Source: a bacterium (GTDB lineage: Bacteria; ARS69). Taken from it: 8,073 nt of DNA. The stretch covers positions 1 through 8,073 of the forward strand of contig JALGZO010000472.1 in NCBI GenBank assembly GCA_025774865.1, written 5' to 3'. The position numbers were made by a program, and so were the translations under genes. Shown piece after piece: positions 1 through 7,824 of the stretch (within the stretch, counting starts at the first letter, position 1; each line of letters opens with the position of its first letter). The notes under the pieces were generated by a model. The model saw nothing but the letters and a program-made list of their open reading frames with translations, was not told where the DNA came from and ran no database searches.

Positions 1-1020
1 AGCGTGTGCATCTTCACCAGCGGCGTGAGGTGTCCCGTATCCCCGAAGTCGTACGCGTACTCCCCCCGGGTGAGCGTGGGGCACGCGGTCGGCTCTACCG
101 CGACGACCCGCACGTCGGCCTCTCCGCGGAGCTTTCGTCCCAGGAAGGGAAACGCGAGCCCGGCGAGATTCGACCCGCCGCCGGCGCAGCCGATGATCAC
201 GTCGGGGTAGTCCCCGGCCATCTCGAGCTCCTCGATCGCCTCGAGACCGATCACCGTTTGGTGCAAGAGGACGTGGTTGAGCACGCTTCCCAGGGAGTAC
301 TTCGTGTCGTCCCGACCGGCCGCCACCTCGACCGCCTCGGAGATGGCGATGCCCAAGCTTCCCGGGGAGTCGGAATCCTGCGCGAGGATCGCCCGACCGG
401 CTTCCGTTTCCGAGCTCGGGCTCGCCACGCATCGGGCGCCGAAGGTCTCCATCAGTGCTCGCCGGTACGGCTTCTGCCGGTAGGACACGTTCACCATGAA
501 GACGTCCACCTCGAGTCCGAAGACGGCGCCGGCGAACGCGAGCGAGGATCCCCACTGCCCCGCCCCCGTCTCCGTGGTCAGGCGTTTCACCCCTGCCTCT
601 TTGTTGTAGAAAGCCTGGGCGATGGCGGTGTTCGGCTTGTGGCTTCCGGTGGGGCTCACTCCCTCGTACTTGTAGTAGAGGCTTGTGGCTTCCGGTGGGG
701 CTCACTCCCTCGTACTTGTAGTAGATCTTGGCCGGCGTCTCGAGCGCTCGTTCCAGGCGCCGGGCCCTATAGAGCGGGGACGGTCGCCACTGCCGGTAGA
801 CGTCGCGCACCGGCCCGGGAATCTCCACTTCCCGGTCCGTGCCCACCTCCTGTCCGATCAGCGCCATGGGGAACAGCGGCGCGAGGTCATCCGGTCCGAT
901 GGGCTGGCCGGTTCCCGGGTGCAGAACGGGCGGCGGCGGTTTCGGCAGGTCGGCGGTGATGTTGTACCAGGACTTGGGAATCCGGTCCTCCGGAAGCACG
1001 TACTTGACGGGGTCGCTCAC
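1..1020 (-). pseudogene. trpB: TrpB2-type tryptophan synthase beta chain, 3' end off the window, frame broken by a 46-bp tandem duplication
   Basis: This encodes a PLP-dependent beta chain of tryptophan synthase, which joins indole and L-serine to make tryptophan in the cytoplasm. With one copy of the 46-base repeat removed, one frame covers about 324 residues before the left edge; the family usually runs to roughly 430-450. The product begins VSDPVKYVLPEDRIPKSWYN. It contains [16 protein letters not shown], with Lys113 as the expected Schiff-base lysine, then [20 protein letters not shown], the phosphate-binding [16 protein letters not shown] and [20 protein letters not shown]. These are hallmarks of the TrpB2 subfamily rather than classical TrpB1. 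The GTG start at 1020 is chosen because GGGAGG sits 6 bases upstream. As written, translation leaves the correct frame just after Lys113 and runs without a stop to the window edge. The gene lies 24 bases behind the FadH-like gene, so co-transcription is likely. Family assignment is firm; whether the break is genuine is unknown. Confidence 0.9.
634..725. repeat. Perfect 46-bp tandem duplication inside trpB2
   Basis: Bases 634-679 and 680-725 are identical and abut directly. The unit encodes the [15 protein letters not shown] stretch, which includes the PLP-binding lysine codon (682-684 in one copy, 636-638 in the other). Because 46 is not a multiple of three, the second copy shifts the frame. 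Removing either copy restores continuous TrpB2 sequence on both sides, so the ancestral form clearly had one copy. This is either a real slippage duplication or an assembly artefact. Confidence 0.97.
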
Positions 1021-1044: not shown

Positions 1045-3132
1045 TTAGATTTGGAGGGCGGCCCGGTAGGCGCCGTGGACCGCCTGGCAGACCGACCCCG
1101 GGTGGACGGCGTCGCCGATCACCTGCAGCACGTCGACCCGGTACTCGAGGTCCTGGACGAGCTCCTGACGACTGGTCCGCCTGCCTCCCACGACCAGGAG
1201 ATCCAGCTCGAGCGACTCCGGCCGTTCCGTCCCCTCCTTATACTCTTGTACGGGATCCCATCGCACCTGCAGCTTGCCCGAACTGTCCCAGCCGGCGGCC
1301 GAGGCGCCCCGGAGCACGGTGATGCCGAGCTCCCGCAACCACGCGGCGTGGCGCCACTTGAAGGTCGGGGCGACATCCCACGCCTGCTTGCTGCCGCCGG
1401 CGAGCATGGTCACCCGGCTGCCCCGTTTGGCGAGGACCTCCGCGCCGACCAACGCCGTGCGTTCGATACCCAGGACGACCACTCGCTCGGCGGCAGGAGG
1501 ATCGCCCGGGTCGTCAGCGAACCACACGGAAACGCCGGCGGGCGCCTCATCGGCGACCTCGGCGCGGGGCACTTCCGCCCCCGTGGCGAGAATGCAGACA
1601 TCGGGCGCGAGCTTGGAGACGGCGCGGCCGTCCGCCGTCGTCTCGAGTCGCACGGTCACTCCCACGCGCTCGAGCTGCTTCTCGTAGTAATCGATCAGTC
1701 GCAGGAAGACTTCCCCGCCGCCGATCTCCCGGGACGCGGCCAGCAGTTGACCCCCCAGCTGCGGGCGCCGTTCCCACAGCTCAACTTCGTGGCCCCGGCG
1801 CGCGGCGACGAGGGCCGCCTCGAGGCCACCCGGCCCTCCCCCCACCACGAGCACGCGGCGGCGCTGCGGCGCCGGGCGCACCTTCATCTCCGGCTCGAAC
1901 TCGTGGCCCAAGACCGGGTTCATGCTGCAGATGTAGGGCAGGTTGCGGAACATGCGGGACAGGCAGACCAGACCCCCCAGGCACGGGCGGATGTCGTCCA
2001 CGGAATCGTGGGCGAGCTTGTGCACCAGTAGCGGGTCCGCGAGCATCGGTCGACAGACCTCCCAGAAATCGAAATCGCCCCGTGTCAACGCCGCTTCCGC
2101 CATGACGGGGTCGCCGAACCTCGGACCGAACGCGATCGGAACGGAGACCGCCCGCTTGGCGGCCTGCGCCAGCGGCAGCCAGTGGTCGGATGGAACGTCA
2201 CGACCCAGGGCGCCGCGGTTCGATTCGTGCCAGCCCACCACGACGGAAATGCCGTCCACCCCGGCCCGCTCCGCCATGCGCATGAACTCCACGCACTCCG
2301 CCTCACTGTTGCCCCCGCGCTCGTCCATCAACTCCGCCCCGTTGAGCCGCACCCAGAGCATTCGCTCGTCCCCGATGGCTTCACGCATCGCGCCCAGCAG
2401 TTCCACCATGAACCGTCCCCGCCCCTCGATGTCGCCACCGTAGCGGTCGGTGCGGGTATTGGTGAAGGGGGACAGGAAGTTGGACAGCAGGTACCCCATG
2501 AAGCTGGTCACTTCCACACCGTCGAAGCCGGCCTCGCGGGCTCGGCGCGCCGCCTGCGCGTGATCGTCGATGCAGCGCTCGATCACCTGGACCGACATCT
2601 CCCGGGGAGGACGGAAGTGACGCAGGGTCTGGGGTACGGAAGAGGGTTGGATGCAGTGATCGTGATCGATGCCACCGTAACGTCCGGCGTGCAGGATCTG
2701 TTGCACCGCGAGGGCTCCGGCGTCATGGATGAAATCGGCGATCCGGGCGAAGCCGGGGATGAAACGATCCTCGGCGATCGAGAGCTGCCGCACGTAGGCT
2801 TTTCCGTAACCATCCCGGTCGGGGTACGCACCCTGGTTCGTGACGATGCCGCACCCGGTGCGGGCCACGACTTCCATGCGGCGGAACTCCCGCTCGGTGA
2901 TCGATCCGTCGGGGTTGTTGAAGTTCGAGACGGAACAGGCGGCGTACTTGATCGAGTTGGGAGCAGTGCATTTGCCGACGCGCCGCGGACTGAACAGCGC
3001 CCGGTAGCGGCACGGGCCGGGCATCGCGGTGTCGATCGAGCGGACGCCGCGCGCGTCGGCGAGCCGTTCCTCCCAGGCCGGTTCCGGTGACAGTCGAGCG
3101 CTCCGTTTCTCATCGGCGGTGCGTCCAGTCAC
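1045..3132 (-). CDS. FadH-like NADH:flavin oxidoreductase (2,4-dienoyl-CoA reductase family; FMN barrel, Fe-S and FAD/NAD domains)
   Basis: The 695-residue product has the three-part plan of bacterial 2,4-dienoyl-CoA reductase (FadH, about 670 residues) and trimethylamine dehydrogenase. Residues about 44-380 form an Old-Yellow-Enzyme FMN barrel with LHAGRYGG (147-154), FMGYLLSNFLSP (211-222), RTDRYGG (227-233) and GWHESN (300-305). Tyr214 and His302 align with the catalytic Tyr and His of FadH as I recall them. A cysteine cluster follows at 384, 390 and 402. An FAD-binding domain carries VVGGGPGGLEAA (429-440), LATGAE (515-520) and a C-terminal IGDAVHPGS (672-680). Two features are unusual: the second expected Fe-S cysteine is Gly387, and the second Rossmann motif (VVVLGIERTALVGAEVLAKR) lacks the usual GxGxxG. 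GTG at 3132 is preferred because a GGAG lies 9 bases upstream; Met37 (3024) is a fallback start without a visible ribosome site. It is cytoplasmic and probably co-transcribed with trpB2. The substrate cannot be read from sequence. Confidence 0.9.
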   Translation of the reverse strand: MTGRTADEKRSARLSPEPAWEERLADARGVRSIDTAMPGPCRYRALFSPRRVGKCTAPNSIKYAACSVSNFNNPDGSITEREFRRMEVVARTGCGIVTNQGAYPDRDGYGKAYVRQLSIAEDRFIPGFARIADFIHDAGALAVQQILHAGRYGGIDHDHCIQPSSVPQTLRHFRPPREMSVQVIERCIDDHAQAARRAREAGFDGVEVTSFMGYLLSNFLSPFTNTRTDRYGGDIEGRGRFMVELLGAMREAIGDERMLWVRLNGAELMDERGGNSEAECVEFMRMAERAGVDGISVVVGWHESNRGALGRDVPSDHWLPLAQAAKRAVSVPIAFGPRFGDPVMAEAALTRGDFDFWEVCRPMLADPLLVHKLAHDSVDDIRPCLGGLVCLSRMFRNLPYICSMNPVLGHEFEPEMKVRPAPQRRRVLVVGGGPGGLEAALVAARRGHEVELWERRPQLGGQLLAASREIGGGEVFLRLIDYYEKQLERVGVTVRLETTADGRAVSKLAPDVCILATGAEVPRAEVADEAPAGVSVWFADDPGDPPAAERVVVLGIERTALVGAEVLAKRGSRVTMLAGGSKQAWDVAPTFKWRHAAWLRELGITVLRGASAAGWDSSGKLQVRWDPVQEYKEGTERPESLELDLLVVGGRRTSRQELVQDLEYRVDVLQVIGDAVHPGSVCQAVHGAYRAALQI

Positions 3133-3137
3133 GCGAA

Positions 3138-3145
3138 CTCTCTCC
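3138..3145 (-). promoter_or_regulatory. Ribosome binding site for the FadH-like gene
   Basis: The minus strand reads GGAGAGAG just before the GTG at 3132-3130, with GGAG 9 bases and GAGAG 5 bases from the start. It supports this start over an upstream in-frame codon at 3342, whose extra 70 residues look non-coding. Confidence 0.5.
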
Positions 3146-3365
3146 GATCTCTGGGCCCGATCTATCCGAGGAAGACGGCCGTCCGCCCGCCACTGCCGAC
3201 CCAGAATAGAACGGACCGACGTCGTCGTACAGACGTACGTACCGTACCCAGCGTCCGAGATCGTCTCCCCTCCACCGTCTCCTCGCGAGAATCTGCTTCT
3301 GAAGTCGGTGGACCAGTACACCCGAGTTGGAGATCGTGACACCGCGTACGATCACCGTCGCTGGT

Positions 3366-3401: not shown

Positions 3402-5723
3402 TTATCGAAGGTGCACCATTCGTCGCGTCTCGTTCGCGCCACCGGTGCTCAGCCGGTAGTAGTAGACGCCCGACGAGAGATCCGTCGCCTCGAACTGGAC
3501 CGCGTGCGTGCCGGGACCGAGGACGTCATCCACGAGCGTGCGAACCAGCCGACCACGGACGTCGAAGACCGCGAGCCGCGTTTGCGACGACTCGGGCAGC
3601 GTGAAGCCAATCGTCGTCCGCGGGGAGAACGGGTTCGGTCGGTTCTGGGCCAGCATCAGCCGAGCCGGGGGCACGGAGACCGACGGTTCGACATCGACCG
3701 CCTCATCCAGGCGAAGCACCGCCGCCGCCTCGCTGATGGCGCTCAACCACAGATCCCCGTCCGCGTCGAAGGCTACGCGCCCTAGCTGGTAGTGCGGTAT
3801 GGGCGAGTCCTCGTAACGCCAGATGCTCCAGTTCGCGGGTTCGTTGATGTCGCCGTCGATCACGGCCACGCCGTTGGGAAACGGCGTGACGGCGCCGAAC
3901 TCGCTGGTGCTCAATCCGATGACTCCGTCGTCGCGCACGGCAACGCCCTTCACCGCCCGGGCGGGAAGTGGAGAGTTCGACATGTCGTAAAGGACCGGAT
4001 CGCCCGTGCCGTCCCAGCGGAGCAAGCCCTCCTCCGTTCCGAGCCAGAAGACGTCTCCCGGCCCGATGTCGAAGACGTTGACGCCTCCCAGATCGAAGAG
4101 CGGCCACTCCTCGCCGACCGTCGTCCACGTTGAGCCGTCCCACTTGTGAAGTGCGAACCACGCGCAGATCCATACGTTGCCCTCGCTGTCGGCGTCGACA
4201 CCGGGAAGGCCGCTGACGGCGTAGGGGTCGACGGGCTCGCGAATCCAGAGCGAGCCGTTGAAGCGAAACGTCACTCCGTACTCGTCCACGGCGAAAAGCT
4301 CGCCGCTCAAGTCTTCCGCAAAGAACGGGAACAAGGTGACGCCCATGCCCGGGTTGTTCTTCCAGTTCCAGAATCCCGTGAACTCGTTCGTGACGGGGTC
4401 CCAACGGGCAATGCCGTTGCCCCCCATCCAGATGATTCCGTTGCGATCCTGGTAAGCGCCGCCCATGGGCTCGTTGCCGGCGAACGGATATTCCTCCGAG
4501 CCTAGATTGTGGTTTCCCCAGTTGCGCCAGCGAAGACCGTCGAAACGGCTGAGACCGGCCTCTCCCGTGGCGACCCAGAAATTCCCGTCACGGTCGGTGG
4601 ACATGTAGTCCACGAAGTAGTCCGGGAAGCCGGTGTTAGGCGAGTTGAATGACTCGATCCAGACTCCGAAGCCGTTGAGGTGGTGAACGGCACGATGACT
4701 CCCCACCCAGACGTCATCGCTCAACGGATCGAAGACGATGCCCGTGACGAAGCTGGAGACCTGTCCGAAGAAGGACCAAGTCACTCCGCCGTCCGTGGTC
4801 TTGACGACCTCTCCCATCCAGTTGCCGATGTAGATGTCGCCCGTCGCGGGATCGCAGGCGACGCGGGTAATCGTGGTCTGGGAAAGCGGCGGCGTGCCGC
4901 CTCCGAACAGGACGAAATCGGTGCCGTCGAACTTCCACACGTCGTAGGCGAGATGGCAGCCGATGAGCCAGACGTTACCTTCGAGGTCGGTGGTGACGCT
5001 CTTGAAGCAGTTGACGTCTTCACCGTGGATCGTCCAGCTCAACCCGTCGTACTCGGCTACGCCCGGTAACACGGTGTTCGTGACCCACACGTGATCGTCG
5101 GAGTCGACATGGAGAGATCCGAACACGTTCCAGGGGGCTTCCCAGGGGATGTCGTCGGGGACGGTGAACATCCGCCAGTTCGCTCCATCGTACTCGAAGA
5201 GGGCGGCGGGCCCCTCCCGCACGTCGGAGTTGTTGATCCAGAGATGACCGTCGGAAGTCTGCTCGATCGAGCGGATGCCGTTGTGGAGGAGCGGTGAGTT
5301 CGAGGTGTTGAATATCGTCCAGGAAGCGCCGTCTTTCTTGACGAGGCCGCCGTCGACCTCGGTGAGCTCGTTGTGGCTCGTCGCGATCCAGAGGACTCCG
5401 CCGGGCGCATACTCGATGTCGTTGATGTAGCCCGACGGGATCGGCGTGTCGACGGTCGCGATGACGTCCCAGGTCTCGGTGGGAGCGTCGTAGATCCCGA
5501 GGCCGCCCTTCTCCCAGAACTCCCAGCGAGCGCCCACCCAGAGCTTGTCGTCCGGTCCGAAGGTCATGAGCCGGATCTCGGCGCCGGGGATCCCCGTGTT
5601 GTCGGGTCGCACCAGCTCCCAGTCCCCCACGATCGCCGGTGCGGGTGTCGAGCAGGCCACGACGGTGACTGCGAGCGCGAGGATCCGGAGCCTTGCGCTC
5701 GTGATCCTATGTCTGGAGTCCAT
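3402..5723 (-). CDS. Exported beta-propeller protein (two-component-regulator-type blades) with C-terminal FlgD-like / T9SS-type sorting domain
   Basis: The 773-residue product starts with a basic then hydrophobic export signal (residues 1-30). It ends either at a lipobox-like VVAC (Cys24) or at an APA site near residue 30. About twelve blades follow at roughly 50-residue spacing, each with a core such as DDKLWVG (58-64), GGVLWIA (108-114), DGHLWIN (158-164), EGNVWLI (248-254), DGNFWVA (379-385), EGNVWIC (514-520) and DGDLWLS (655-661). Many are followed by a YDG, FDG or WDG turn and an aromatic strand. Residues about 691-773 form the sorting tail, with NRPNPFSPRTTIGFTLP, VFDVRGRLVRTLVDD, SGVYYYRL and a final RRMVHLR. 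The ATG at 5723 has GGGAGG 6 bases upstream. Such propellers are known as sensor domains of hybrid kinases, but no kinase or regulator domain is present here, so a surface or secreted binding role is inferred. The ligand is unknown. Confidence 0.88.
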   Translation of the reverse strand: MDSRHRITSARLRILALAVTVVACSTPAPAIVGDWELVRPDNTGIPGAEIRLMTFGPDDKLWVGARWEFWEKGGLGIYDAPTETWDVIATVDTPIPSGYINDIEYAPGGVLWIATSHNELTEVDGGLVKKDGASWTIFNTSNSPLLHNGIRSIEQTSDGHLWINNSDVREGPAALFEYDGANWRMFTVPDDIPWEAPWNVFGSLHVDSDDHVWVTNTVLPGVAEYDGLSWTIHGEDVNCFKSVTTDLEGNVWLIGCHLAYDVWKFDGTDFVLFGGGTPPLSQTTITRVACDPATGDIYIGNWMGEVVKTTDGGVTWSFFGQVSSFVTGIVFDPLSDDVWVGSHRAVHHLNGFGVWIESFNSPNTGFPDYFVDYMSTDRDGNFWVATGEAGLSRFDGLRWRNWGNHNLGSEEYPFAGNEPMGGAYQDRNGIIWMGGNGIARWDPVTNEFTGFWNWKNNPGMGVTLFPFFAEDLSGELFAVDEYGVTFRFNGSLWIREPVDPYAVSGLPGVDADSEGNVWICAWFALHKWDGSTWTTVGEEWPLFDLGGVNVFDIGPGDVFWLGTEEGLLRWDGTGDPVLYDMSNSPLPARAVKGVAVRDDGVIGLSTSEFGAVTPFPNGVAVIDGDINEPANWSIWRYEDSPIPHYQLGRVAFDADGDLWLSAISEAAAVLRLDEAVDVEPSVSVPPARLMLAQNRPNPFSPRTTIGFTLPESSQTRLAVFDVRGRLVRTLVDDVLGPGTHAVQFEATDLSSGVYYYRLSTGGANETRRMVHLR

Positions 5724-6067: not shown

Positions 6068-7824
6068 TCACTTCAGCCGGATCGCTTTCTCCGTGAGCCG
6101 GGCGGACTCGGTCTCCAGGCGGACGAAGTACACGCCGGGAGCGACGGCGGCCCCGGACTCGTCCCACCCCGACCAGCGCACGGTGTGGGTCCCGACCGAG
6201 ACGTCCTCGTTCACCAGTGTCTTGACGAGACGCCCCGTCACGTCGTGAATCGTGAGCCTTGCCGTCGCCGCTCTCGACATCACGAACGCCACGGACGTCC
6301 ACGCTCGGAACGGATTGGGGCTCGGGGCCTGGAGCAAGGCTGCCGCCGAGGGGACCGTCGTGGCCACAGCCGTGGCGGTCTCGTCGAGGGCCATCGCATA
6401 CAGGTAGCTGTACCCGGGGTAGTTCAGGAGGAGCGTCGTCACGTACGCGGTCCGACTGTCGGCGGAGAACGAAGGGCGATACGAAGAGACCACGTGCCTC
6501 GCGCCCTCGGGAGGCAGTTCGTACTGCCAGAGAAGATCCCCGTTCGTGGTGTCGAACGCGCGGACGAGATCCAGGTTGTCCGAGTTCCCACCGTCGACAA
6601 TGGTCGCGTCGTCCGGGCTGACGCCGAGGGCCAGGAGTTGACCGTAGCTCGGCTCGTCCCGGAACCACTTCGTGGTGCCGTCGGGATCGAGGGCCCAGAT
6701 GTAGTGTGAGAACCAGCCCGCGACGTAGATGGTCCCATCCGGTCCCACAGTCGGATCGACGTACTGCGCCCCTGGATCGGGAGACGTCTCCCGCCAAGCG
6801 ACGGCTCCGTCCCGGTCGATGGTGGAGACCGTGCAAAGCCCCTGCCCCGTGACTACCATCTGCCCGGAAGGATTGAGGTGGGCGTACGAGTCGATCTCGC
6901 AGGTCCCTGGGACCATTGAAGCTGGCCATCGTAGTCGAACGCCCAGGCGATCGGCGGGGTGCCGCCGTCCGAGTAGATGCAGAAGTAGAGACGGTCCTCG
7001 AGCAGACTGGCGAACCGGATCTCCGAATTGCTGGACCGGGAACTCTGGATGCCGGGATTCGGATCCGACCAGAGAAGGTTGCCTTCGGGATCCACGCAGA
7101 ACGCCCCGAGCCCTTCTCCCCAGCGGGTGTTGTCGGCCGCGTAGATGTTGCCATCGGGCCCCACGCTCGGGCCCACGAGCAGGATCCGCGCTTCGGACGG
7201 CCCCTGCCACTTCACGGTGCCGTCGGGATTCAGGGCCGTCAGCCCGTACGCGCCGGTGTAGATCGTCCTGTCCGGTCCGACGGCGATCGGCCGGGCCCCT
7301 CCGGCCCCGGAGACCACCCATTTGAGACCGCCGTCCGGGGTGAGCGCGTACATCCGCGCCTCGACCGTGACGTTCTCGTCGTCCGTCACATAGACGGTGC
7401 CGTCCGGCCCGACCCCGACGAAGTCTCCCGGATACTCCGCGTCCATCTGGAAGCGCCAGCGGACCCGTCCGTCCGCCTGGCGTGTGGTTACGTCCAGCGT
7501 CGCGACGTTGCTCGGGTTCCCATCAACCGTGACCTGAACGGAGACGTTTCCGAGCGATGCGGCTTCGGGAACGTAGGCGTGAATCTCGGTGTCCGTCCAC
7601 GTCGTCGCGATGGCGGTCAAGCCATCGATGATCACCTCGCCGCCGGTGCCGTCACCGAAACTCGATCCGAAGATCAGGAGACGACCGCTTCGCTCGAGGC
7701 TCGTGCTAGACAAGGACGAGATTTGCGGTGGCGCGAAGGCTCCGGCCCTGGAACTGAAGAGGACGAGAGCGAGAACCAAACCGGACTTCCGCATGCTGGA
7801 CCGAAACGTCCGAGCGAGTAGCAT
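6068..7824 (-). pseudogene. Secreted TIG-domain / PQQ-type beta-propeller protein with C-terminal sorting domain, frameshifted
   Basis: Allowing one inserted base near 6905, a 585-residue protein results. Residues 1-30 are a signal peptide: basic MLLARTFRSSMRKS, a hydrophobic core, then cleavage probably after AGA. Residues about 33-113 match an IPT/TIG immunoglobulin-like fold, with IFGSSFGDGTGG, WTDTEIHAYVP and GNPSN. From about 117 to 490 there are PQQ-type blades with repeated VGPDGTVY (138-145), VGPDRTIY (182-189), VGPDGNIY (221-228) and VGPDGTIY (360-367), each tied to ALNPDGTVKW-like strands. Residues about 497-585 are a FlgD-like sorting tail: PSPNPFRAWTSVAFVM, HDVTGRLVKTLV, PGVYFVRLE. 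As written, the first frame stops at 6853 after 15 aberrant residues and the tail lies in another frame. The ATG at 7824 has AAGGAG upstream. PQQ-type folds often bind no cofactor, so no enzyme activity is assigned. It follows the upstream partial propeller gene by 43 bases. Confidence 0.85.
6900..6912 (-). other. Frame-break site in the TIG-PQQ gene
   Basis: Upstream reading gives FDYDGQLQWSQ; downstream sense resumes as GTCEIDSYAHLNPSGQ in a frame offset by one missing base. The break falls in the minus-strand run TCCCAGGGACC. Adding one C or one G to either triplet restores a continuous propeller, giving WSPGTC or WSQGTC. No slippery heptamer or downstream structure that would suggest programmed frameshifting is apparent. 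Confidence 0.8.

Follow-up and report, generated by a model that had tools for sequence, protein, structure and literature searches.

A tandem duplication in trpB2

The stretch of DNA analyzed here, referred to as the window, is one whole contig (C476, 8073 bp) of a metagenome bin. At its beginning lies a minus-strand gene that, judged by its sequence, encodes a TrpB2-type member of the TrpB-like PLP enzymes. The N-terminal part of this gene is found in its proper frame at 680–1026, with a TTG start at 1026 in the list of open reading frames, and the central part occupies 1–679, one base out of register with the N-terminal part. The contig breaks off before the C-terminal part is reached. The TIGR01415 profile matches the gene in two pieces, with profile positions 1–102 on 981–679 and positions 85–312 on 686–3; ~18 profile positions are therefore matched twice, in one piece on each side of a duplication. 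The two pieces score only 379 and 112 bits, below the cut-off of 518.85, because the gene is both split and truncated. For the NF009057 (TrpB-like) profile, the central part alone gives 389.5 bits, over the curated cut-off of 366. The earlier note had placed the duplication within trpB2, and the flanking two-piece match and the NF009057 score bear this out.

The duplication consists of two identical, directly abutting 46-bp units. The unit nearer the contig start (634–679) is the downstream copy in the direction of trpB2, and the second unit (680–725), coding for ~16 residues, is the upstream copy. Tandem Repeats Finder identifies this as the single array in the 8073-bp window (634–725, period 46, 2.0 copies, 100% match and no indels) and direct comparison gives the same result, confirming the perfect tandem duplication that the earlier note had described. 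A repeat of 46 bp by chance is negligible (about 8000 x 4^-46). The bases just outside the array do not continue the match (C at 633 against A at 679, and T at 726 against G at 680); the mismatches at both borders mean that the exact repeat stops at the unit edges and that the junction homology is 0 bp, where zero homology is defined by a match length equal to the period. A signature of slippage or microhomology, in the form of a short in-register direct repeat at both breakpoints, was looked for at 634–725 and is absent: the longest direct repeat near the trpB2 breakpoints is 4 bp, no better than at random positions, and the longest in register is 0 bp.

Since 46 is equal to 1 modulo 3, the duplication shifts the trpB2 frame, as had been proposed. 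As assembled, the reading ceases to match the family from residue 117 on, the position that follows the catalytic-lysine motif GSHKP, and then stays open without a stop to the contig end, giving 226 meaningless residues. The earlier description can be refined in one respect: residue 115, the catalytic Lys, and Pro 116 are retained, and it is all of the later trpB2 sequence that is lost. The PLP-lysine motif GSHKPN does not occur in one intact frame as assembled, and is present both in the relatives and in a reading with one unit. The latter is continuous for 326 residues, from MIVSDPVKYV... up to the contig end, and there is no further frame break in trpB2 outside the array.

Positions 1045–3342 of the window, also on the minus strand, encode an OYE/FadH-like flavoenzyme whose best match is mycofactocin OYE 2 (370 bits, far under the cut-off of 793). 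No close relative of this flavoenzyme was found in four other genomes of the family, and a conserved trpB2–OYE neighborhood can be rejected, as an OYE relative lies near trpB2 in none of 109 related loci.

Relatives of trpB2 and other tryptophan synthase genes

All 101 relatives aligned across the duplication site, which come from several phyla, are gap-free and have no insertion or repeat there. The closest relatives found are 82–83% identical to trpB2, and on either side of the duplication the gene reads as one coherent TrpB2, about 80–83% identical to single relatives. The family's four other genomes, of which two are just 67–82% complete, were searched for a TrpB2 match above the family cut-off and gave none.

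The earlier note had raised the matter of a further trpB gene. A search of the same bin identifies an intact trpB1 on contig C183 and trpA on contig C749. No second trpB2 was found in the bin, and rescue by such a gene is rejected. Nor does the bin contain an overlapping or redundant contig that covers the duplication site, which is represented by a single assembled allele. Because trpB1 and trpA are intact, loss of trpB2 would probably be tolerated. The occurrence of trpB1 together with a separate trpB2 has been described before (PMC1854888). The gene thus resembles the TrpB2 and TrpB-like PLP enzymes (TIGR01415, NF009057; PMC1854888) in its sequence match on both sides of the duplication and in having a separate trpB1 alongside, but differs in that its frame is broken by the duplication and the gene is cut at the contig end.

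Duplications elsewhere in the bin

We scanned contigs amounting to about 647 kb, or about 14% of the bin, for similar duplications. The controls comprise 1.216 Mb and include two complete genomes, the trpB2 loci of relatives and 80 loci of a genome collection. Two further exact tandem duplications with a junction homology of 0 are evident: (i) a 37-bp duplication at 2545–2618 of C183 (L093) frameshifts the last ~5% of aceE and (ii) a 22-bp duplication at 968–1011 of C511 (L259) shifts the frame at the C-terminal end of fmt, after which the reading runs on into an rsmB-like gene. The aceE and fmt assignments come from reading the sequences, and fmt is also identified by TIGR00460. The two duplications sit in the last 5–10% of their genes, and at each site a single unit gives a plausible normal protein end.

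Together with trpB2, this makes three exact, homology-free, frame-breaking two-copy duplications in conserved genes within 647 kb of the bin. In the 1.216 Mb of controls, no exact homology-free two-copy duplication of at least 20 bp was found; the nearest case is one of 50-bp period with a 2-base shortfall, and the others are low-complexity repeats. The excess over controls, calculated by us from these counts, has a p of about 0.04 when the window is counted and about 0.12 when it is left out, and is suggestive only.

A fourth duplication, of 54 bp and with a junction homology of 2, lies in a low-complexity stretch of C5 (L006) at 5317–5426. Between 5200 and 5430 of this contig a folC-like reading stops and a TPR-like one starts on the other strand, and C5 has a chimeric appearance; it also carries a kinase-like gene that is apparently frameshifted near 3947. 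On C130 (L025), three copies of a 45-bp repeat at 3412–3549 run into the contig end. Besides this array and the four duplications, the 647-kb scan contains one low-complexity repeat.

A probable local assembly error

Three readings of the duplication had been put forward in the earlier note. An assembly error is the best supported of these, though not proven; a real loss of function of recent date competes with it seriously, while slippage with phase variation is unsupported. The most likely explanation, which we hold with moderate confidence, is that the metagenome bin is of low quality and that its assembly went wrong locally, producing the second 46-bp copy. Overlapping pieces of one trpB2 gene, two in number, would have been joined with their overlap not, or not fully, removed, and the last 46 bases of the overlap would thereby have been written twice. 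The cell would carry one copy and make an ordinary TrpB2, and we infer that no read would support the two-copy junction. An untrimmed overlap at a join yields a perfect, undiverged and homology-free duplication by construction.

Several observations count in favor of an assembly error. The signature of an unremoved overlap, an exact duplication up to the unit borders with 0 bp of junction homology, is present at the trpB2, aceE and fmt sites, with three cases in 647 kb of the bin and none in the 1.216 Mb of controls. The bin, of 4.7 Mb and 92.65% completeness, is fragmented into 785 contigs, one of which is the entire window, and its contamination is 8.3%. The gap-free alignment of 101 of 101 relatives and the otherwise unbroken trpB2 frame also count for an error of this kind. 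A second apparent frameshift, of one base, occurs on the minus strand within window positions 6900–6920 (near 6908), in a beta-propeller-like gene where ...FDYDGQLQWSQG is followed in another frame by ...TCEIDSYAHLNPSG. Like the chimeric appearance of C5 around the 54-bp duplication, this frameshift fits a rough assembly.

Other observations count against an assembly error. Some contig ends in the bin (L239, L113 and L004) overlap by exactly 114 bp, from which, by the reasoning of PMC7111523, we infer that the largest k-mer of the assembler was about 114–115. This exceeds the 92-bp array, so that reads containing both copies would be expected, unless the piece came from a smaller k or from the scaffolding step. 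Both the aceE and the fmt event are located at gene ends, where random errors need not fall, and the excess of duplications over controls is weak. Frameshift candidates number 16 in the bin and zero in two complete genomes of lower GC content. The overall frameshift density, however, is 2.7 per 100 kb of coding sequence in the bin versus 1.3 in GC-matched control loci (p = 0.24), and a raised density is not decisive as proof of poor assembly. A leftover duplicate was also sought at one short gap (6 N, contig C471 = L095) and none was found; a McsB-like reading runs across this gap.

Local assembly errors are a documented class. Published curation of metagenome genomes has described scaffold joins at which overlapping ends were kept in duplicate, as well as local errors, of which a single 1.1-Mb scaffold had 13 and which are suspected to be a prominent feature of IDBA-UD assemblies (PMC7111523). 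The trpB2 case resembles these in having an exact duplicate at a join, a fragmented bin, recurrence within the bin and broken genes. It differs in that the documented duplicates have Ns between them, whereas the trpB2 copies abut.

A possible genuine recent duplication

The main rival to an assembly error is a genuine tandem duplication that inactivates trpB2 and arose very recently in the sampled population, which we regard as a serious but less probable explanation. Microhomology would have played no part in its formation, one candidate route being the joining by Ku/LigD of staggered break ends that had been filled in, and the null mutation would be tolerated as trpB1 supplies tryptophan synthase. 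The machinery expected for this route is present in the bin. The Ku gene (6678–7220 of C486, L235) has LigD-type genes on both sides (5437–8667): a ligase-like open reading frame on one side and, on the other, a LigD phosphoesterase domain that runs into a polymerase-like region at the contig end. The phosphoesterase/polymerase reading frame is on the opposite strand from Ku.

The intact trpB1 and trpA agree with a tolerated null mutation, and the inferred k-mer larger than the array is likewise in its favor. Real mutations near gene ends are tolerated, and the other duplications of the bin are at such tolerant ends. Against a genuine duplication, three undiverged, homology-free and frame-breaking events in 647 kb exceed the control level and trpB2 is without other decay. 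End joining of breaks with protruding ends gives tandem duplications in mouse cells (PMC5730883), and the trpB2 case is similar in being a small two-copy duplication in a bin that encodes Ku and LigD. The demonstration was made in mouse embryonic stem cells, however, another organism, and bacterial NHEJ as the source of such duplications is an analogy.

A more far-reaching version is that a Ku/LigD bacterium of a poorly sampled lineage gathers homology-free tandem duplications of 20–50 bp throughout its genome via staggered-break end joining, leaving several frame-broken and precisely revertible genes, trpB2 among them. We consider this improbable. If the duplications are real, the bin would offer an example from nature of an end-joining bacterium in which tandem duplication without homology has occurred repeatedly.

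With either an assembly error or a null mutation, the trpB2 duplication is ordinary, being either a stutter of the assembly or a mutation of a common gene-breaking type, in a gene whose function is probably backed up. Its practical meaning is that exact short duplications in fragmented bins can make intact conserved genes look like pseudogenes, and such duplications call for caution, and a check against the reads, before gene loss is claimed.

Unlikely readings: strain mixture and phase variation

It is very unlikely that the contig joins two close relatives, or one strain and a contaminant, and that the duplication is the seam. The 8.3% contamination and the lack of a TrpB2 match above the cut-off in the four other family genomes, two of them incomplete as noted, would be compatible with such a mixture, but the two copies are identical and their flanks form one coherent TrpB2 with about 80–83% identity to single relatives.

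Least probable of all is a phase-variable switch, in which slippage between one and two copies would turn trpB2 on and off; this reading is rejected on the 0 bp of junction homology, the presence of only two long copies and the lack of an array in relatives (a repeat or insertion at the site in none of the 101). Nearby direct repeats are also no longer than at random positions, the bin holds no second allele, and switching of this kind would be atypical for a metabolic gene. Precise deletion within a perfect direct repeat is possible in principle, and in a beta-lactamase gene tandem repeats that arose de novo show high-level reversion when selected for (PMC4169377). Those penA duplications keep the frame, were selected for function and are in several cases bounded by direct repeats of 3–8 bp (PMC4169377), whereas in trpB2 the frame is lost and a junction repeat is absent; what the two share is a perfect short tandem duplication within a coding region.
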